64,000 bases of DNA, from contig NZ_CVRP01000007.1 in the NCBI RefSeq assembly GCF_001261735.1, positions 124,001 through 188,000 on the forward strand, read 5' to 3'. Below the pieces are notes generated by a model. The model did not search any database. It had not been told where the DNA came from and worked only from the letters and a program-made list of their open reading frames with translations. Source of the stretch: Dysgonomonas sp. BGC7. GTDB taxonomy: Bacteria; Bacteroidota; Bacteroidia; Bacteroidales; Dysgonomonadaceae. This document shows, in pieces, positions 3,913 to 43,512 of this stretch (its first letter is position 1; each line of letters starts with the position of its first letter). The position numbers were made by a program, and so were the translations under genes.

Positions 3913-4524
3913 ATGGGAAAAATTAAAGTAAAAAAACAGAGTACATTCATCGATATGACTGCGATGAGTGACGTTACTGTACTTTTGCTCACATTCTTCA
4001 TGCTTACAGCAACATTCTTACCCAAAGAACCGGTACAGGTGATTACACCTTCGTCGGTATCTGAAACAAAAATACCGGAAAATAATGTGCTAACTATATT
4101 GATTGACCCAAATGGAAAAGTCTTTTTGAATATAGATAGAAAAGAAAGTAAAAAAGCGGTATTGGAGTTGATGGGACAGGATTATGGCATTACATTTACA
4201 GATAAACAGATAAGATCGTTCGTGGAACAAACACACATTGGTGTGCCTATGAACAGAATGTCTGCTTTCTTAGATTTGCCATTAAGCGACCAGGATAGTG
4301 AGATTAAGAAATTCGGCGTGCCGCTTGACAGCGCAAACAACCAATTTTCACGTTGGATAAAACATGCAAAAGAAGTAAGTGGCGACAATATGGGTATCGC
4401 TATCAAGGCAGACCAAACTACAGCATATCCTCTGGTAGATGATGTGATGAAAGCTCTGGTAAAAATGAAAGAAAACAGATATAGCCTTATTACGTCTCTG
4501 AGAGGAATGCCGGAAGGCCTATAA
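3913..4524 (+). CDS. exbD: ExbD/TolR-type biopolymer transporter, first copy
   Basis: A single-pass subunit that carries the proton-accepting Asp of the Exb complex. The N-terminal helix reads MSDVTVLLLTFFMLTATF (about residues 16-33), and its Asp is the expected protonation site. The periplasmic part (residues 40-203) is longer than in E. coli ExbD (about 140 aa) and contains a central insertion around residues 88-150. It is paired with a second, different ExbD immediately downstream; in Bacteroidota two ExbD paralogs commonly flank one ExbB. Confidence 0.85.
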   Translation: MGKIKVKKQSTFIDMTAMSDVTVLLLTFFMLTATFLPKEPVQVITPSSVSETKIPENNVLTILIDPNGKVFLNIDRKESKKAVLELMGQDYGITFTDKQIRSFVEQTHIGVPMNRMSAFLDLPLSDQDSEIKKFGVPLDSANNQFSRWIKHAKEVSGDNMGIAIKADQTTAYPLVDDVMKALVKMKENRYSLITSLRGMPEGL

Positions 4525-4557
4525 TAATCTAAAATTATTAACTAAAAAAAGAAAATT

Positions 4558-5217
4558 ATGGCTTCTGTAGATACCGGTGGCGGAGAAGAAAAAAAAGGTA
4601 AACCAAAAAAACAGACTCTACGAGTAGACTTTACTCCGATGGTGGATATGAACATGTTATTGATTACATTCTTCATGTTCTGTACCACATTGAGTAAACC
4701 GCAAATCATGGATATTGCGATGCCTACCGACGAGAAACTGACTAAGGAAGATGAAGTAAAGGTAAAAGACTCTAAGTCGGTAACGCTACTGCTTGGAGAC
4801 GATAATAAAGTATATTACTATACAGGTATTCCTGATTATACAGATTATACTACCTTGAAAGAAACAAACTATTCACCAGAAGGGTTGCGTGCTTTATTGT
4901 TAGAACGTAATAAAGACGTTGTAGACCAAATGCGCGAGCTTAGACACGAGAAATACGTGACTAACAAGAAAATGTCTGATGATGTGTTTAAGGAAAGATC
5001 AAGAGAAATTAAAGGAGTGAAAGATGGACAGGTTGTAGTTATAAAACCTACTTCTGAATCTACTTATAAAAATCTTGTAGACGCACTAGATGAAATGCAA
5101 ATATGCAGTATTGATAAATATGCTATTGTAGATATGACAGAAGGGGATCAGTACTTACTTGAAAACCTGAAGACAAAAGGGGCTTATGGAGCAGAAGCAG
5201 CACCACCTAAACAATAA
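4558..5217 (+). CDS. exbD: ExbD/TolR-type biopolymer transporter, second copy
   Basis: The second ExbD paralog, 219 aa. After a Lys-rich cytoplasmic start comes the helix FTPMVDMNMLLITFFMF (about residues 26-42), with the conserved Asp, then a long periplasmic domain. It shares little sequence with the first copy outside the helix, so it is not a recent duplication; the two may form a heteromeric ExbD pair. The C-terminus (GAYGAEAAPPKQ) is short and flexible. It lies 33 bases after the first copy and 30 before tonB. Confidence 0.85.
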   Translation: MASVDTGGGEEKKGKPKKQTLRVDFTPMVDMNMLLITFFMFCTTLSKPQIMDIAMPTDEKLTKEDEVKVKDSKSVTLLLGDDNKVYYYTGIPDYTDYTTLKETNYSPEGLRALLLERNKDVVDQMRELRHEKYVTNKKMSDDVFKERSREIKGVKDGQVVVIKPTSESTYKNLVDALDEMQICSIDKYAIVDMTEGDQYLLENLKTKGAYGAEAAPPKQ

Positions 5218-9240: not shown

Positions 9241-9249
9241 CATTCGGAA

Positions 9250-9306
9250 TTAGTGGATAGATTTGTATCGATTGCAACCACATGAAAAAATGCTAAACCA
9301 TTTTAT
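9250..9306 (+). ncRNA. SAM-II riboswitch in the metK leader
   Basis: Reads as the compact SAM-II aptamer. A P1 stem GTGG (9253-9256)/CCAC (9277-9280) closes a loop containing GATTT and ATTGCAA; then comes an A-rich linker and the conserved GCTAAA (9292-9297) that forms the pseudoknot. The same order (GAUUU, AUUGCAA, P1', A-rich, GCUAAA) is found in the SAM-II structure sequence as I remember it. It binds S-adenosylmethionine, the product of the enzyme encoded 57 bases downstream, so feedback control is the natural reading. The stretch before the ATG also holds the small palindrome TAAAATTTTA, which might take part in switching. Confidence 0.82.
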
Positions 9307-9362: not shown

Positions 9363-10631
9363 ATGAGTTATTTATTTACATCTGAATCTGTTTCGGAAGG
9401 ACATCCGGATAAAGTTGCAGATCAGATTTCAGATTCATTGCTAGACGAATTTCTGGCTTATGATAACAATTCGAAAGTAGCTTGTGAAACATTAGTTACA
9501 ACAGGACAGGTTGTATTGGCCGGAGAAGTGAAATCCAAAGCATATATTGATATTCAGGAAACTGCTCGTAGAGTGATTGAGCAGATAGGCTATACAAAAA
9601 GCGAATATCAGTTCGAAGCTAAATCTTGTGGGGTTCTTTCTGCTATACACGAACAATCTGATGATATAAATAGAGGTGTGGACGGAAAAGCCGATCCTAT
9701 GAATCAGGGGGCAGGAGATCAAGGGATGATGTTTGGATATGCAACAAATGAAACAGATAATTATATGCCATTGGCACTTGATTTATCTCATGCATTATTG
9801 CTAGAGCTTGCTGCTATCCGTAAGAATGATATTGAATTAATGCCATATTTACGTCCTGATGCAAAATCGCAGGTTACAATAGAATATGATGACAATGGTA
9901 CTCCTTTAAGGATTGACACGATTGTAATTTCTACACAACATGATGATTTTGGAGACGATGCTACTATGCAGGCTAAGATAAAAGATGATGTTGTAAATAT
10001 CCTTATCCCGCGAGTTAAAGAGAAATATAAATTCAGAGAGGATATTGCGCGTTTGTTTACAGATGATATTACATATCACGTAAATCCAACAGGGCGTTTT
10101 GTTATAGGAGGTCCTCATGGTGATACAGGTCTTACCGGCCGTAAGATTATTGTAGATACCTATGGAGGCAAAGGCGCACATGGAGGTGGAGCTTTTTCGG
10201 GGAAAGACCCATCGAAGGTAGACCGTTCAGCAGCGTACGCATCTCGTCATATAGCTAAAAATTTAGTGGCGGCAGGGGTTTCTCCTGAGATATTGGTTCA
10301 GGTATCATATGCTATTGGTGTGGCAAAGCCGATGAATATCTATGTAAATACATATGGCAAGAGCAATTTGAATATCACAGATGGAGAAATAGCTAAGAAA
10401 GTAGAAAAATTGTTTGATATGCGTCCGAAAGCTATTGAGCAAAGATTGAAACTAAGAAATCCAATCTATACCGAAACAGCTGCATATGGACATATGGGAC
10501 GTGAGCCGAAAGTCGTGAAAAAGCATTTTCAATCACGCTACAACCCTGAAGGCTTAACGTTAGAGGTAGAATTGTTTACATGGGAGAAGCTAGACTATGT
10601 AGACGCAATAAAGAAAGAATTTAATATATAA
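9363..10631 (+). CDS. metK: S-adenosylmethionine synthetase MetK
   Basis: Makes S-adenosylmethionine from methionine and ATP in the cytoplasm. The start [20 protein letters not shown] carries the ATP-binding [17 protein letters not shown] (about residue 115) and [20 protein letters not shown] (about 249) are signature regions, with [19 protein letters not shown] the Lys/Asp-rich active-site loop. At 422 aa it is slightly longer than E. coli MetK (384), with the difference in the central region. It is a single-gene transcription unit with its own promoter, SAM-II riboswitch and terminator. Confidence 0.98.
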
Positions 10632-37400: not shown

Positions 37401-39050
37401 ATGAGAAAATTTAGTTTGTGCTTTTTTCTGCTGCCTTTTGCTTTGTTAAATGTTTTAGGGCAGCAACAATATAGAAAACCTGTAATGCCGACGAAGAATC
37501 TTATACTAATGATTCCCGATGGTACTTCAATAGGAGTTGTATCAGCTGCTCGCTGGTATCAGATCTATAATAATCTGGGGGGAGACAGGCTTGCTGTCGA
37601 TCCTTATATTTGCGGAACAGTAAAGACCTTCTCGTCTAATGCTCCTATTGGCGATTCTGCACCTACTACATCGTGTTATATGACAGGTATGCAACAAAGA
37701 GAAGGGAATGTTGCTGTCTATCCGTTAGCTGATACAGTTAATGATCTGGTATCCGTAAATCCCTCAATGGCTTATCAGCCTTTGGCTACTATTTTAGAAG
37801 CAGCCAAATACCAGCAAAATAAAGCTGTTGGTCTTGTTGTTACTGTCGAGTTTCCTCATGCTACGCCTGCTGATTGCTCCGCTCATTACTATGATAGAAA
37901 TAACTATGGCTACATTGCTTCACAAATGGCTTATCAAAATTTAGATGTCATGTTTGGTGGTGGTAATTCTATTATAACCGATGATATAAAGCAATATTTC
38001 AGAAATACAGGAACTACATTGGTTCAAGATGATATAGAAGCTTTTCGTAGTCTGAAAGGAAAAGATAAAGCTTGGGCTCTGTTTTGTGAAAGAGAGCATC
38101 CTTACGACCTCGACAGAGATACTACAAAGATTCCTTCTTTAGCGGAAATGACAGAAAAAGCTCTTGAGAAATTGTCTCAAAATGAGAATGGCTTTTTTCT
38201 GATGGTAGAAGGTAGCAAGGTTGATTGGTCGGCACATGGTAATGATGCTATCGGCTGTATCACGGAATATTTGGCCTTTGATAAGGCTGTGGCTCTAGCT
38301 ATGGATTTTGCTAAAAATAATGGAGAGACTACAATCGTTATTCTGCCTGATCATGGCAATAGTGGTTTCACTATAGGGAATAAAAATCTTAATCATGGAG
38401 AGCGTGCTTCCATTTCTACTCTCTTTGGTAAGGTTTCAGAATATAAAAAAACCGGTTATGGACTAAGCGAGATAATCTTAAACTCTAAACCCGAAGATTT
38501 TAGAAAAATATTTAAAGAGTATGCTAATATCAACTTAACAGATGATGAATATAATGCAGTGCTTCAATCAATAGACTACAAAAAGCCCGGATATACAGAG
38601 ATTGCTAATAGTCTGAATGTAGCTTCTGTTGTTATTAATATAATGAATTCCCGTACATATTTTGGATTTACTTCGGGTAACCACACCGGAGAAGAAGTAT
38701 TTCTTGCAGCATACCATCCGCAAGGTAATGTTCCTATGGGGATGAATACGAATGCAGAGATAAATCAATATTTATTTGATGTTTTGGGTTTGAAAAAGTC
38801 TTTACCGACAATGACTTCAGAAATTTTTGCAAAACATACTGATGTTTTTGCGGGTATGGACTATTGGATAGATAAGTCGGCGAGTTTTCCTATATTAAAA
38901 GTGAAAAAAGGAGGTAAGGTATTGTCTGTTCCTGCTTTCAAATCGCTGGCATATATTAATGGACAGTCAATACCTTTAAATACGGTAACTGTTTATATTG
39001 ATAAAAATGATACTTTCTATTTGCCACAAAACTTAAGAGATAAATTCTGA
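37401..39050 (+). CDS. Exported alkaline phosphatase
   Basis: 549 aa. The signal peptide covers about residues 1-20 (cleavage near NVLGQ). Zn/Mg-dependent PhoA-type catalytic residues are present: LILMIPDGTSIG (first metal Asp), the nucleophile Ser86 in GDSAPTTS, EFPHATPADCSAHY, FFLMVEGSKVDWSAHGND (about 271), VILPDHGNSGFTIG (about 313) and GNHTGEEVFLAAYHP (about 427). It releases phosphate from organic esters in the periplasm. The C-terminal 80 residues after LGLKKSLP are an extra small domain. No Pho box was identified. Confidence 0.92.
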   Translation: MRKFSLCFFLLPFALLNVLGQQQYRKPVMPTKNLILMIPDGTSIGVVSAARWYQIYNNLGGDRLAVDPYICGTVKTFSSNAPIGDSAPTTSCYMTGMQQREGNVAVYPLADTVNDLVSVNPSMAYQPLATILEAAKYQQNKAVGLVVTVEFPHATPADCSAHYYDRNNYGYIASQMAYQNLDVMFGGGNSIITDDIKQYFRNTGTTLVQDDIEAFRSLKGKDKAWALFCEREHPYDLDRDTTKIPSLAEMTEKALEKLSQNENGFFLMVEGSKVDWSAHGNDAIGCITEYLAFDKAVALAMDFAKNNGETTIVILPDHGNSGFTIGNKNLNHGERASISTLFGKVSEYKKTGYGLSEIILNSKPEDFRKIFKEYANINLTDDEYNAVLQSIDYKKPGYTEIANSLNVASVVINIMNSRTYFGFTSGNHTGEEVFLAAYHPQGNVPMGMNTNAEINQYLFDVLGLKKSLPTMTSEIFAKHTDVFAGMDYWIDKSASFPILKVKKGGKVLSVPAFKSLAYINGQSIPLNTVTVYIDKNDTFYLPQNLRDKF

Positions 39051-39061
39051 TAGATTATTAT

Positions 39062-39577
39062 CTATCTTCCTAGATTTCTTATATTCAGAGAATTAAGAAC
39101 TGTAGCCATAGTGCCTTTGTGAAGATATTGCCAGATTGGGTTTTTAACAGTAGTATTTTCAGTCTCGTCGGGCCTGTTGAATGTTTTTTCTATTTCATTG
39201 TCGCGAATAAAATAGCTATCGAAGTCGAAATTTCTGTCTTTAGATGCCACAACAAACATTCTGCCTCCAATAACGAAAAAGCCGTAAGGTGTTTCATCTC
39301 GGGTGAGCATATTGCACCATGAGTTATCTATTGCTACAATGTCAAAAAATAATTTATCCCCAGTTTTCGATAATGTTATCTTTGTTGCAGGCCATAAGAA
39401 TCCTCTGTTCTTTCTCAGTATCATTTGATGTACGTCCGTAGCAGCAAATTTTATGACATCATCTTTTATTTCCAGATATGGTAATACTATTTTGTTCTCT
39501 CCTTTTGTTGGAGAAGCACTATTGAGTTGAATAGATACAAACAGGATAGATATAAAGAAGAGAATCTTGATTTTCAT
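39062..39577 (-). CDS. Exported protein of unknown function
   Basis: 171 aa from ATG 39577, which gives a clear signal peptide (MKIKILFFISILFVSIQL, cleavage near NSAS). The in-frame ATG 17 codons upstream would bury the signal and is not preferred. The mature part is a mixed alpha/beta sequence with no motif I recognise; the C-terminus is helical (QYLHKGTMATVLNSLN). It converges on the alkaline phosphatase gene with an 11-base gap and no obvious terminator. Confidence 0.6.
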   Translation of the reverse strand: MKIKILFFISILFVSIQLNSASPTKGENKIVLPYLEIKDDVIKFAATDVHQMILRKNRGFLWPATKITLSKTGDKLFFDIVAIDNSWCNMLTRDETPYGFFVIGGRMFVVASKDRNFDFDSYFIRDNEIEKTFNRPDETENTTVKNPIWQYLHKGTMATVLNSLNIRNLGR

Positions 39578-39685
39578 TATTTTTTTATTTTCGGCGTACA
39601 AATGTATAAAACTTTTTAAAATTATCATAAATAGATTTGATCTGCTATAAATAGTTAATCATTTTTATCAATTCGAACTTTTCTT

Positions 39686-39724: not shown

Positions 39725-40138
39725 ATGAAAAATATAATAAAATATTTGAAAAAAATAGCTTTATTCCTTTTTGGAGTAGTTCTTATTGTGTGGGGATATA
39801 AGGTTAATGCTGCGAACAATGCAACTAAAGAGGAGAAGAAAGATAAGTCTTCTAAATCAGTAGAACCTGTAACCGAAGAGAAAAAGTCCGATCAGAAAGA
39901 GAGTGAAGAAGAGTCCGGAGATTCTAAACAAGATAATAAAGATAAAAAAGACTCTAAACCTGTTCAAAATCAGCCGGCAAAAGATACTAAGCAAGAACCG
40001 GCTACGAAACCGAAGCCTGCCGCTAAGTCTTCTTCTGAAAAAAAGACAGAACCTGAAGTTAAAAAAGAAGAGAAAGAGGTGAAGGAAGAAACTGTAATAG
40101 AGAAAGCTACACCAGAAGAGTCTTCAGGGACAGAATAA
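39725..40138 (+). CDS. Membrane-anchored Lys/Glu-rich low-complexity protein
   Basis: 137 aa. A single N-terminal hydrophobic helix (about 10-29, KIALFLFGVVLIVWGYKVNA) may be an anchor or a signal peptide. The remaining 100 residues are almost only Lys, Glu, Ser, Pro, Asp, Thr and Gln and are surely disordered. There is no recognisable domain. The stop is 3 bases before apbE, so it belongs to the apbE-rnfC-rnfD operon. It could be a tether or scaffold for that complex. Coding status is supported by promoter spacing and tight operon packing, not by homology. Confidence 0.6.
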   Translation: MKNIIKYLKKIALFLFGVVLIVWGYKVNAANNATKEEKKDKSSKSVEPVTEEKKSDQKESEEESGDSKQDNKDKKDSKPVQNQPAKDTKQEPATKPKPAAKSSSEKKTEPEVKKEEKEVKEETVIEKATPEESSGTE

Positions 40139-40141
40139 ATA

Positions 40142-41065
40142 ATGGCAGAGAGAATATATAAGGCTCAGACCCGATATTTATTTCATGCACATATTAAGAT
40201 CAAAGTTTCTGCATTTTATGACGACAGTTTTTTCGATGGATTGTTTTCTATCTTAGAAGATGTTGATAAAAAATATAATTCATATCAGCCGGATTCATAT
40301 ATTGATCGCATCAATAAAGCTGCAGGTAGCTTTGTCGAAGTCGACAGTGAGACCGTAAATATACTGAGGCAGGTCTTGGAACTATCTGATTTTTTTGCTG
40401 GAGCATATGATATTACAGTCATGCCCCTTATTCGTTTATGGGGCTTTTACAGAAGCGAGCACAGCCGTATTCCTACAGAGGAAGAGATTGCAGAGAATCG
40501 CAAGCTGGTCAGTTATCGTAATATCGAGATAGAAGGAAACAAAGTAAGAATAGCAGATGGTCAGGAGTTGATTACAGGTTCTTTTATAAAAGCATATGCT
40601 GTGGATAGACTAGTAGGTTACATGCGACAGGTAGGTGTGAACGATGCGATAATAAATGCAGGAGGTAGTACTATCTGTGCAATAAATGACAATGTTCATC
40701 CGGCATGGCAGGTTATTGTTCGAGAGCCTAAAGAAGAAAATGTCTTGTTTAATGTTGATATTGCAGATCAAGCATATTCTACATCGTCTCAGAGCAAAAC
40801 ATTCCTGGAAATTAATGGAAAAGAATATGGACATATCTTAAATGCAAAAACAGGTATGCCATCGACAAATAAGCAAGTTGGAGTTATAAGTGATAATTGC
40901 ATGGTCGGCGATATAATATCTACAGGACTGTATTGCCTGTCAGGAGAAGATTTTCTACAGAAAATGGAGCAATTATCATCCCGATACAAAGTGGAAGGAT
41001 TCCTTCTTGACGAGGATGATAGAATATTTGGAACGAAAAGGTTTGTCAATAAGAAAAATAATTAG
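40142..41065 (+). CDS. apbE: ApbE-family FAD:protein FMN transferase-like protein
   Basis: 307 aa. ApbE enzymes cleave FAD and link FMN to Thr in membrane proteins such as RnfD, RnfG and Nqr subunits. Family motifs are recognisable: GAYDITVMPLIRLWGF (about 95-110), ITGSFIKAYAVD (about 143, where relatives have GGIAKGYAVD), DAIINAGGSTICA, YSTSSQSKTFLEINGKEYGH with HILNAKTGMP, and GDIISTGLYCLSG keeping the metal-site Asp and Thr. Two differences stand out: no signal peptide or lipobox, although most ApbE proteins are exported, and the Ala in KAY where Gly is usual. It lies 26 bases before rnfC. Confidence 0.85.
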   Translation: MAERIYKAQTRYLFHAHIKIKVSAFYDDSFFDGLFSILEDVDKKYNSYQPDSYIDRINKAAGSFVEVDSETVNILRQVLELSDFFAGAYDITVMPLIRLWGFYRSEHSRIPTEEEIAENRKLVSYRNIEIEGNKVRIADGQELITGSFIKAYAVDRLVGYMRQVGVNDAIINAGGSTICAINDNVHPAWQVIVREPKEENVLFNVDIADQAYSTSSQSKTFLEINGKEYGHILNAKTGMPSTNKQVGVISDNCMVGDIISTGLYCLSGEDFLQKMEQLSSRYKVEGFLLDEDDRIFGTKRFVNKKNN

Positions 41066-41091
41066 TCTGGTAATAAGGCGTTGATTTTATT

Positions 41092-42378
41092 ATGCATATA
41101 TTTTCAGGAAAGAATAAGACGAAAGGGAAGAGGATTGTAGCAATAGAGAGTGTCCCTTATTTGTATATCCCTATTCCTCACTACATGCGAGACTTTTCTG
41201 TCCCGATAGTCAACGTTGGGGATAAGGTCTGTAAATTTCAGTTAATAGCAGAGTCTAAGGGTGTGTTTTCTTCTAATGTACATTCTCCTGTATCGGGTAT
41301 TGTAGAGGCTATTGAGGAATATTCTTCTGCAGATGGTACTCTTGTAAATACCATTGTAATTAAAAATGACTTTGAAGAAAAAGTTGAAGTAAGACCAACT
41401 TCATTGTTGTATCTACAAACCCTTACTTCTGAACAGCTTTTAAATATCATACGAGGTAGCGGTGTAGTAGGAGAGGGTGGAGCTCAGTTTCCGACAGCAG
41501 TTAAGTACACTCTGGATGGTAAGAAAATAAATACCTTTATCGTAAATGGAGCCGAGTGCGAACCTTATCTGACAGCTGATTATGCGTTGATGTCGCAGCG
41601 AACGAAGGAACTTCTGGAGGGAATTGCAATTATAAATAGGATTCTTGGTGCGCAAGAAATTGTTATATCTATAGAAGAGCAAAACAAGCAGCTGCAAAAA
41701 GTATTCGAGCCTTTTCTCAACAATCCATTATATAAAAATATTCGTATCGTTACTCTGTCCAATGATTATCCTCAAGGAGCAGAGTTACAGTTGATAAAGT
41801 CTGTGACCGGGTTGGAACTACCTCGTAATGTATTGCCTCGCGATGCCGGAGTTATTGTTAGCAATGTAGGTACTATATATGCTATATACAAGGCAGTCGT
41901 TTTTCACGAACCTGTTGTCAATCGTGTTATCACTGTTGCAGGCAATGGTTGCGAAGGGGGAAACTATGAAGTGAAAATAGGAACTCCGATATCTTATATA
42001 CTTGATGTGCTTGGGATATCTGCCGAAAATAATACGGTTGTTGTGGGAGGTCCGATGATGGGGCGCGCTGTAACAAATAGTAATACATCTGTAACGAAAG
42101 GTACATCAGGTATAATATTGACAAAAAAAGAAAAAATAAAGAGAGAGAACTGTATTTCTTGTGGATATTGTGTCGAAGTATGTCCGATGGGGCTTATGCC
42201 GATGAAATTTGAAGAGCATTATAGAAAAGGTAAATACTTTAATCTTGAAAAATATAGTATAAGTAGTTGTATCGAGTGTGCAGCATGTGAATATATATGT
42301 CCTGCCAATGTAGCTCTTATCGAAAGTATAAAAAAAGGAAAGATAAAACTAAAACAGCAAGCTGATGCAATACGATAA
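41092..42378 (+). CDS. rnfC: RnfC-like electron transport subunit
   Basis: 428 aa peripheral subunit that takes electrons from a soluble donor (NADH or ferredoxin) in Rnf complexes. The N-terminal biotinyl-like fold is followed by a NuoF-like nucleotide/FMN region with GSGVVGEGGAQFPTAVKY (about 123) and FIVNGAECEPYLTADYALM. Two 4Fe-4S motifs follow: Cys354/357/360/364 (CISCGYCVEVCP) and Cys393/396/399/403 (CIECAACEYICP). It lacks the long Ala/Lys-rich tail of E. coli RsxC. Its 3' end overlaps rnfD by 14 bases. The rest of the Rnf set is absent here. Confidence 0.88.
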   Translation: MHIFSGKNKTKGKRIVAIESVPYLYIPIPHYMRDFSVPIVNVGDKVCKFQLIAESKGVFSSNVHSPVSGIVEAIEEYSSADGTLVNTIVIKNDFEEKVEVRPTSLLYLQTLTSEQLLNIIRGSGVVGEGGAQFPTAVKYTLDGKKINTFIVNGAECEPYLTADYALMSQRTKELLEGIAIINRILGAQEIVISIEEQNKQLQKVFEPFLNNPLYKNIRIVTLSNDYPQGAELQLIKSVTGLELPRNVLPRDAGVIVSNVGTIYAIYKAVVFHEPVVNRVITVAGNGCEGGNYEVKIGTPISYILDVLGISAENNTVVVGGPMMGRAVTNSNTSVTKGTSGIILTKKEKIKRENCISCGYCVEVCPMGLMPMKFEEHYRKGKYFNLEKYSISSCIECAACEYICPANVALIESIKKGKIKLKQQADAIR

Positions 42379-43435
42379 AACTCTTTATGCTCCATTCGTA
42401 AGAACAGATGATAGTATCGGTAAGGTGATGACAGATGTTATTGTAGCTTTACTGCCTGCTATAGTTATATCATATCTGGCATTTGGATATATACCGTTGA
42501 TGGTTGTTCTGGTTGCCGTAGGAAGTGCTTTAATTACTGAATTTATTTTCTCTGCCATCTTTTTTAAGCGGACAGATTCTGTTGCGGACGGATCGGCTAT
42601 AATAACAGGCATTCTTTTGGCCTTTACCATAGCTCCCTTTACTCCTCTCTATGTCGTTGCATTTGGAGGATCTATGGCCGTATTGTTCGGTAAGCTTCTT
42701 TGGGGAGGTATGGGGCGTAATGTATTTAATCCGGCTTTGGTTGGGCGCGAGTTTATGACAGTCTTTTTTCCTGCTGTTATGGCTTCACGCACTATCTGGT
42801 ATGACAAAACGGCTGTAAATATAAGTAATATAGATCTTTTTGGGAGCGACTTCTTCAATCAGTTGTTTTTCAAGGCTTCCGGAGCTATTGGAGAGTATTC
42901 TGTATTTTTTTTGGTATTGGGCGGCCTATATCTTCTTATACGAAGACGAATCTCATGGCACATCCCTTTTGCTCTTTTAGTATCTTTTTCTGTATTATTA
43001 CTTGTATTCACAGGCTTTTCTGACTATACTATTCAATTCTCGTTGGGAGGACTTATGCTGAGCGCTATTTTCATGGCTACGGATATGCCTTCGAGTACAT
43101 CTGCTAACTACGGTAAATTATACTACGGGGCAATGATTGGAGTTGTTGCTATTATCTGTATTCTCAACGATGTGAAATACGAATATATGTCATATTCTAT
43201 TTTGTTGCTTAATGCTTTTGTTAGTCCAGTCAACTGGGTTTTTCGTCCAAAAGTATGGGGGCAGAAATTGGATTGGCTCACACGTTCGTGGCAAGGTTTG
43301 GCTGTTACATCTATGATTTTTATAGCAACCTTTGCTATGATATATTTACACCACACAGGGGCTATAATGTATCTTGTTTTTGTATATATTCTTTTCTGTG
43401 TCATTCGCTTCATTGCTAAAGAAAAGCAGTTGTAG
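42365..43435 (+). CDS. rnfD: RnfD/NqrB-like membrane subunit
   Basis: 356 aa with about nine membrane helices. Family landmarks: YDKTLYAPFVRTDDSIGKVM (N-terminus), DGSAIITGILLAFTIAP (about 75), LLWGGMGRNVFNPALVGREF (about 117), GAIGEYSVFFLVLGGLYLLI (about 175), and LGGLMLSAIFMATDMPSSTS (about 228). Between VGREF and IGEYS, canonical RnfD has an SATP-type site to which FMN is linked; this protein reads WYDKTAVNISNIDLFG there, with no S/T-x-A-T motif. Covalent FMN is therefore doubtful. A bidirectional terminator separates it from the nuo operon. Confidence 0.88.
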   Translation: MQYDKTLYAPFVRTDDSIGKVMTDVIVALLPAIVISYLAFGYIPLMVVLVAVGSALITEFIFSAIFFKRTDSVADGSAIITGILLAFTIAPFTPLYVVAFGGSMAVLFGKLLWGGMGRNVFNPALVGREFMTVFFPAVMASRTIWYDKTAVNISNIDLFGSDFFNQLFFKASGAIGEYSVFFLVLGGLYLLIRRRISWHIPFALLVSFSVLLLVFTGFSDYTIQFSLGGLMLSAIFMATDMPSSTSANYGKLYYGAMIGVVAIICILNDVKYEYMSYSILLLNAFVSPVNWVFRPKVWGQKLDWLTRSWQGLAVTSMIFIATFAMIYLHHTGAIMYLVFVYILFCVIRFIAKEKQL

Positions 43436-43455
43436 TAAAATAAAAATGATAAAAT

Positions 43456-43492
43456 AAATAAGGAGCAAATATTTTCTATTTGCTCCTTATTT
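43456..43492. terminator. Bidirectional terminator between rnfD and nuoN
   Basis: A perfect 16-bp stem (AAATAAGGAGCAAATA/TATTTGCTCCTTATTT) with a 5-base loop, A-rich on one side and T-rich on the other. It terminates both converging operons. Confidence 0.88.
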
Positions 43493-43512
43493 ATCTTATG
43501 TAATTACTTTTC

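Follow-up and report, generated by a model that had tools for sequence, protein, structure and literature searches.

What could RnfC and RnfD do in a bacterium in which RnfA, RnfE and RnfG of the canonical Rnf complex (RnfABCDGE) are not found? The question is raised by a locus of Dysgonomonas sp. BGC7 (Bacteroidota), in a stretch of 64,000 nucleotides (nt) of contig NZ_CVRP01000007.1 (positions 124,001 to 188,000) that was analysed as a whole, is called the window below, and supplies the coordinates given unless another locus is named. Four consecutive open reading frames (ORFs) on its + strand, at 39725-43435, encode a small "tail" protein of 137 amino acids (aa) with one N-terminal hydrophobic stretch followed by a K/E/P-rich region (39725-40138), an ApbE-family FAD:protein FMN (flavin mononucleotide) transferase of 307 aa without a signal peptide (40142-41065), an RnfC of 428 aa (41092-42378), and a membrane protein of 356 aa with the RnfD/NqrB fold (42365-43435), the rnfC and rnfD frames sharing 14 nt. 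The initial annotation of this DNA had proposed, at this place, a module of a K/E-rich protein, ApbE, RnfC and RnfD; that module is present, and its gene order recurs in dozens of genomes. As judged by comparison of its sequences, it is a family of its own, and we consider it likely that it passes electrons from reduced nicotinamide adenine dinucleotide (NADH) through RnfC and a flavin in RnfD to a flavin on the tethered tail, and from there to an acceptor outside the cytosol.

Gene content and separation from canonical Rnf

Domain searches assign three of the four products. The 307-aa ORF matches ApbE (PF02424, 1.5e-55; Pfam), and the 428-aa ORF matches RnfC_N, Complex1_51K and 4Fe-4S domains as well as TIGR01945 rnfC (3.9e-125; Pfam/NCBIfam), in agreement with the initial annotation, which had credited this RnfC with both 4Fe-4S motifs and an NADH/FMN-type loop. 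The 356-aa ORF matches NQR2_RnfD_RnfE (1.4e-72; Pfam), PF03116 being the only Pfam model above its cut-off and PF00175 not being among the matches, and it scores 196.5 against TIGR01946 rnfD, below the cut-off of 207.05. Nothing rose above any Pfam/NCBIfam cut-off for the 137-aa tail protein.

The host genome (4.32 Mb, 99.95% complete) contains a single PF03116 match, the RnfD of the module, and no match to PF02508 (RnfA/E, NqrD/E) or PF04205 (FMN_bind; RnfG/NqrC), each of the three models having matched in 4 of 14 control genomes, including E. coli and Bacteroides ihuae. On these whole-genome profile searches a canonical Rnf divided between this and other loci was rejected as regards A/E, D and G; the searches also extend the earlier statement that nothing else Rnf-like accompanies the module from the window to the genome for PF03116, PF02508 and PF04205, RnfB being outside that search; none was seen in the 64-kb window. 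In a tree of RnfC plus RnfD, 37 minimal rows, that is, rows of the type found here, are parted from 19 canonical ones by one branch (SH-aLRT 100; a quick method without bootstrap, with long branches in two rows, L099 and L086), and on this tree a module nested within canonical Rnf was rejected. The canonical-type rows came from Bacteroidota, Spirochaetota, Bacillota, Pseudomonadota, Fusobacteriota and Gemmatimonadota. Input was 39 of 48 minimal loci, L055, L058, L065, L072, L077, L080, L085, L089 and L093 being left out as near-copies, short or broken, and L096 and L081 were dropped as no RnfC was found for them. Together, the genome searches and the tree bear out the initial view of a distinct system.

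What the two proteins have kept and lost is equally consistent from copy to copy. RnfC has eight cysteines for its two 4Fe-4S clusters (42151-42300, residues 354-403), arranged as two CxxCxxCxxxC sets at residues 354-364 and 393-403. All 19 canonical RnfC retain them, as do 46 of 47 minimal copies, the sole exception (L060) being a broken frame matched only to residue 296. A stop falls within the match in the RnfC of L053 and the RnfD of L093, and near the end of the RnfC match in L068, whose RnfC ORF is 431 aa long. RnfD residues 141-172 (42785-42880), the site of the covalent-FMN motif in canonical RnfD, lack that motif: D..[ST].A[ST] is found in none of 50 minimal RnfD versus 16 of 19 canonical ones, the other three having near-variants, and RnfD was on this ground rejected as the target of the ApbE. 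In the genus of the window a DKTAVN stretch stands at this place, and it is not kept in the other genera. N119 and N122, present in all 50 minimal and all 19 canonical RnfD, may line a flavin. Two additional C-terminal helices, at residues 304-331 and 334-355 (43274-43429), are absent from the aligned canonical RnfD; His329 in this region is found in 37 of 50 minimal copies. An AlphaFold model of RnfD (pLDDT 75.6, pTM 0.75, with residues 141-152 and 163-172 below 50) lies nearest to solved RnfD, with NqrB next, and shows the two added helices.

The minimal RnfD type, separated by a clear gap in score (at least 440 bits, any other type reaching at most 233), occurs in 20 of 101 family genomes, namely 10 of 25 of the window's genus and 10 of other genera. 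PF02508 is absent from 17 of these 20, and the other three also have a PF03116 match that is NqrB-type by score. ApbE, RnfC and RnfD lie next to one another in 19 of the 20 family loci (in L036 RnfC is split in two pieces). The twentieth, L048 in genome G094, combines the small protein with ApbE and RnfD and lacks RnfC, and a search of this 99% complete genome with the window's RnfC gave only weak matches of at most 27 bits, so that the RnfC of the initial proposal is not a constant part of the module. RnfD with no RnfC found in the genome was observed for L048/L081 (G094) and L096 (G518); the electrons must come from another donor there, unless the draft of G518 is incomplete.

Among named genomes a scan turned up 48 loci, of which 47 are minimal and one is canonical (L099, used as canonical here), the minimal ones in Bacteroidota, in Oxalobacter (Pseudomonadota), in one metagenome-assembled genome (MAG) titled Thalassovita, and in Leptotrichiaceae (Fusobacteriota). 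The conservation of the four-gene order in relatives, which the initial annotation had offered as a check, extends across genera and phyla, the same order being seen in Dysgonomonas, Prevotella, Parabacteroides, Flavobacteriaceae and Oxalobacter. Two of the Prevotella sp. titles, those of the MAGs with L053 and L055, are probably wrong. The module is rare (2 of 392 genomes of a phylum sample, 5 of 393 of the order and 5 of 348 of one Flavobacteriaceae genus, counts that include the window's own genome and known relatives). In the module-genome counts G485 and G506 look like one genome; a PF03116 fragment of 203 positions in G085 was excluded from the minimal set, L136-L138 repeat L071, L085 and L088, and L133 and L134, apparent counterparts of L083 and L093, were excluded from counts.

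The small tail protein and its transferase

In the tail protein, residues 11-25 (39755-39799) form a hydrophobic stretch that is conserved across the family, and the protein ends in E131-E-S-S-G-T136-E137 (40115-40135), in which Thr136 (codon 40130-40132) is the proposed FMN acceptor. A single-sequence structure model predicts a helix over residues 2-36 and then coil; among tail proteins the linker varies from 19 to 111 residues, with the transmembrane (TM) helix and the last residues fixed. An ORF that ends in E-x-[AS]-x-x-[ST]-x just before the ApbE start, within -45 to +30 nt of it, is present in 40 of 46 ApbE-bearing loci, and the 5372 ORFs of the same loci yield 42 matches to this motif, those 40 included; position -12, outside the motif pattern, is Glu in 35 of the 40 tails. 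Overlap between the apbE start and the tail codons is seen in many Flavobacteriaceae, and an overlap of a few bases in some Dysgonomonas, though not in most loci of the window's genus, and such overlap was rejected as the cause of tail conservation, the tail being equally conserved where it is absent. Two tail genes stand in tandem in L069.

The membrane anchor leads to a related protein with a recognised flavinylation site. When only the N-terminal 38-39 residues of 12 Dysgonomonadaceae proteins were made into a profile and run on 3637 ORFs of 32 other loci, 25 matches, which come from 24 of these loci, ranked ahead of the first unrelated one. Small ORFs that precede ApbE account for 24 of the 25 matches, among them a frameshifted piece and the second copy of a tandem pair; the remaining match (E 2.2e-4) is a protein with DALTGAS from L139, an RnfC-RnfD operon fetched as a held-out case after the tail pattern had been fixed. 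This small protein has 55 residues and contains GIDALTGAS, a textbook ApbE site by the motif stated in section 8 of PMC12052999. No ApbE was found in the L139 stretch itself, the genome also has an RnfD that is canonical by score, and a plasmid search with the 55-aa protein gave no match.

The transferase, too, goes with the module. Its H231 and D257 are present in 44 of 44 module ApbEs and T261 in 43 of 44; the His is the catalytic residue and the Asp and Thr are Mg ligands, and H231 aligns with the position at which 6nxi and 6nxj differ, His in the former and Gly in the latter. An ApbE of the module's score class (153-191 bits) occurs in 36 of 36 module genomes and in none of nine module-less genomes of the genus, each 98% complete or more; 16 of the 36 module genomes have no other ApbE. 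FMN_bind is absent from 35 of 47 module genomes, the 12 that have it being the same 12 that have PF02508; a transferase without this commonest type of target points to the small protein. The DUF2271, DUF3570 and fumarate reductase types, outside that search, are other known ApbE targets. Further, the canonical motif D..[ST]GA[ST] occurs beside three of six modules without ApbE versus one of 44 with it (Fisher p 0.004, for loci that are not independent, L090 and L091 being close relatives). On these grounds the tail protein is likely the substrate of a dedicated ApbE, and may represent a new kind of ApbE substrate.

Several related cases stand alongside. PNPOx-family proteins with a lipobox or TM helix lie beside minimal RnfCD in L086 (2767-3360), L090 (7117-7662) and L091 (7124-7669); they carry the textbook flavinylation motifs DAITGAT and DAISGAS, the latter in the TM proteins of L090 and L091, which have no ApbE, and are possible new flavinylated reductases. 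ApbE is apart from RnfD in two Leptotrichia genomes: in L128 the tail protein (4181-4741) adjoins ApbE and shows an E-K-A-x-x-S pattern three times, so that an arm may sometimes bear several flavin sites, and in L129 the tail pattern occurs once, internally. In L130 (3404-4483, G497) a module-class ApbE, likewise apart from RnfD, has a hydrophobic stretch in an N-terminal extension, and no small protein was found beside it. The window's genome has a second ApbE (268 bits; L132 3894-4862, G000:C14:77953-78786) that seems to lack a signal peptide and adjoins a gene named by eye as TatC-like.

A number of points weigh against a flavinylated tail outside the cytosol. The motif was derived from the same sequences in which it was counted, and it is missed in 6 of 46 loci (one contig edge, one frameshift, three in which the motif is internal or has further residues after it, and one in which no small protein was found). 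Eight of the 32 loci gave no TM-profile match before the first unrelated one: the small ORF ranks later in L084 and L089, none is listed for L079, L087, L092 and L095, and for L090 and L130 no small protein is known. The window's EESSGTE differs from the textbook D-x-x-[ST]-G-A-[ST], the residue directly before the proposed acceptor is Asp or Glu in 16 of 40 tails, and three modules without ApbE (L072, L096 and L097) have no canonical-motif protein beside them. Finally, none of the 44 module-locus ApbEs has a hydrophobic N-terminal stretch and the enzyme should thus be cytosolic, though the tail is predicted to be outside, the N-terminal flank of its hydrophobic stretch being the more positive (N-in) in 31 of 40 tails, with 5 equal and 4 opposite (the stretch being misplaced for L052 and L092 in this count). 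Either the tail receives its flavin before it is exported, or it stays inside; SecYEG can let bulky groups through.

A proposed electron path and its alternatives

Read together, these features suggest an operon that would act as a transmembrane electron conduit. RnfC would oxidise NADH in the cytosol, through FMN and then two 4Fe-4S clusters, and its electrons would pass to a non-covalent flavin in RnfD. They would be expected to exit at the far side of the membrane, given an RnfD without covalent FMN and no RnfG/A/E partners of the ion-pumping loop. The module's ApbE would attach FMN to the penultimate Ser/Thr (Thr136 here) of the TM-anchored small protein, whose flexible linker would let the tail flavin swing between RnfD and an acceptor. 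In Rnf, as described in parts of PMC12174285, electrons run between a riboflavin of RnfD near the cytosolic side and NAD via the clusters and FMN of RnfC, and the covalent FMN of canonical RnfD sits near the periplasmic side. Without A, E, G and that covalent FMN, the path that remains is NADH to membrane flavin, which a tail flavin would complete outwards. Tail flavinylation, location outside the cytosol and the direction of electron flow are all steps that we infer. The initial annotation had proposed a two-subunit system in which RnfC could pass electrons to RnfD on its own; it was right about a distinct system, yet it left out the tail protein and ApbE from the transfer and an RnfD devoid of the covalent flavin motif, and with a conserved tail that is likely the ApbE substrate, transfer to RnfD alone is not supported as stated.

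An acceptor is suggested in some lineages by the next gene. A nitroreductase gene directly follows RnfD in 20 of 50 loci, 26-163 nt away by matched parts (two of the 20 were scanned with Pfam), and 18 of the 20 have a lipobox by a loose pattern, with one visible by eye in L079 and L135 not resolved. A lipobox nitroreductase as the next gene fits an acceptor outside the cytosol, and this enzyme is probably what takes up the electrons in Flavobacteriaceae and in some Bacteroidales. Next to the Dysgonomonas module no gene for an acceptor was seen.

The same parts might instead form an NADH:quinone reductase, in which RnfC and RnfD would deliver electrons to menaquinone, perhaps at a site formed by the extra helices, with ApbE and tail in regulation or assembly. 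In its favour are the added helices at 304-331 and 334-355, the presence of His329 in 37 of 50 copies, and the fold of RnfD in NqrB, a quinone reductase. Against it, His329 varies among copies, NqrB forms its quinone site from N-terminal helices absent from RnfD (by the account in parts of PMC12174285), a conserved ApbE would be left without a target, the tail TM helix recurs with a canonical flavinylation motif in L139, and a nitroreductase, mostly with a lipobox, is the next gene in 20 of 50 loci; we regard this reading as unlikely. Quite unlikely, too, is a tail on the cytosolic side whose FMN would move between RnfC and RnfD or reach a partner in the cytosol. It would suit an ApbE without a hydrophobic N-terminus in 44 of 44 module loci, the existence of cytosolic ApbEs with cytosolic targets (described in parts of PMC12052999) and the 9 of 40 tails whose N-flank is not more positive; it sits poorly with the 31 of 40 predicted N-in, with the nitroreductases just mentioned, and with L139, where a canonical motif occurs with no adjacent ApbE in a genome with a canonical RnfD, the flavin of which nears the periplasm (PMC12174285, in part).

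That the module is a decaying remnant of canonical Rnf after loss of A, B, E and G is very improbable. Only C and D homologues were found, distribution in the genus is patchy (10 of 25 genomes) and broken copies exist (the RnfC of L036 and L060 by frame and of L053 by a stop, the RnfD of L093 by a stop), but such copies are few and may be sequencing errors, cofactor residues are retained in nearly all copies, the gene order is conserved with an ApbE score class of its own, and the 37 rows of a separate clade span Bacteroidota, Pseudomonadota and Fusobacteriota. 

Returning to the outward conduit, we lean towards seeing in it a redox carrier of a new class: a disordered arm, tethered to the membrane, with FMN at the penultimate residue, a dedicated cytosolic ApbE and a motif of its own. 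Such an arm would replace RnfG and the RnfD flavin and make of the NADH end of Rnf a minimal transmembrane electron exporter, present in at least three phyla.

The single promoter initially assigned to the four genes found no support, a scan giving 11 sigma-70-like sites against 14.5 expected and hence no excess, and a Bacteroidota-type promoter pattern having no match upstream of 39725. As to the proposed terminator, an inverted repeat of 20 pairs, assigned to neither strand, does follow rnfD at 43451-43497, between the convergent rnfD and nuoN, but it is listed as terminator-like on the - strand only, and on the rnfD side it amounts to a hairpin for which no T run is listed. Upstream lie an alkaline phosphatase (37401-39050) and a protein exported as judged by eye and without a Pfam match (39062-39628), both conserved neighbours in Dysgonomonas; they were rejected as module parts, not being beside it in the family's other genera. 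Far from the module, a SAM-II riboswitch (9247-9306) precedes an ORF (9363-10631) that we take to be metK-like.

Relation to known systems

If the proposal is true, the module shows how few Rnf parts suffice to move NADH electrons over a membrane, offers a small system for studies of transmembrane flavin electron transfer, and would give an NADH-driven outlet outside the cytosol to bacteria in which no Rnf/Nqr core was found, among them 17 of the 20 family module genomes and genomes of Flavobacterium, Oxalobacter formigenes and Leptotrichia. The known ApbE substrates would gain a simple target, a linear tail, and cytosolic ApbE action on a protein exported later becomes testable. Searches of the open-licence PubMed Central (PMC) literature brought up no description of paired RnfC-RnfD without the remaining Rnf subunits.

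With canonical Rnf, which couples ferredoxin:NAD+ oxidoreduction to ion transport, the module shares RnfC and RnfD that are homologous over most of their length, the same cluster cysteines and the same membrane fold, whereas here no A, E or G was found and RnfD, of a clade of its own, has two extra helices and no covalent motif. Na+-NQR has the RnfD fold in NqrB, but no counterparts of NqrC, D and E are present in the genome and the NADH site is on RnfC, not NqrF. RnfC-type proteins outside an Rnf complex, as here, are also seen in the annotated PduS and PrdC. To our knowledge, neither of these pairs with RnfD. A cytosolic Klebsiella ApbE for fumarate reductase likewise lacks a signal peptide, but the target described in that part of PMC12052999 is a soluble enzyme, in contrast to the membrane-anchored tail proposed here.

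Closest is the two-subunit Nqr/Rnf-like system (Meheust et al., 2021, PMC8238504; Huang et al., 2024, PMC11334425), and we regard the module as a variant of such flavin-based exporters, in a proposed wiring that we did not find described; the words RnfC and nitroreductase occur nowhere in the main texts of the two papers, supplements not being searched. Both have an RnfD/NqrB-type protein without the flavinylation Thr (PMC11334425, section 9), and both are proposed to use one extracytosolic flavinylated partner in a one-way flow from NAD(P)H to the outside; section 9 of Huang et al. adds that the partner flavin may sample a site in the membrane domain. The differences lie in the parts: in that system a PF00175 domain fused C-terminally to the RnfD part serves as the NAD(P)H module and an FMN-bind subunit as the carrier, whereas here these roles would fall to a separate RnfC and a TM-anchored linear tail without an FMN-bind fold, served by an ApbE that, as a further difference, has no signal peptide.

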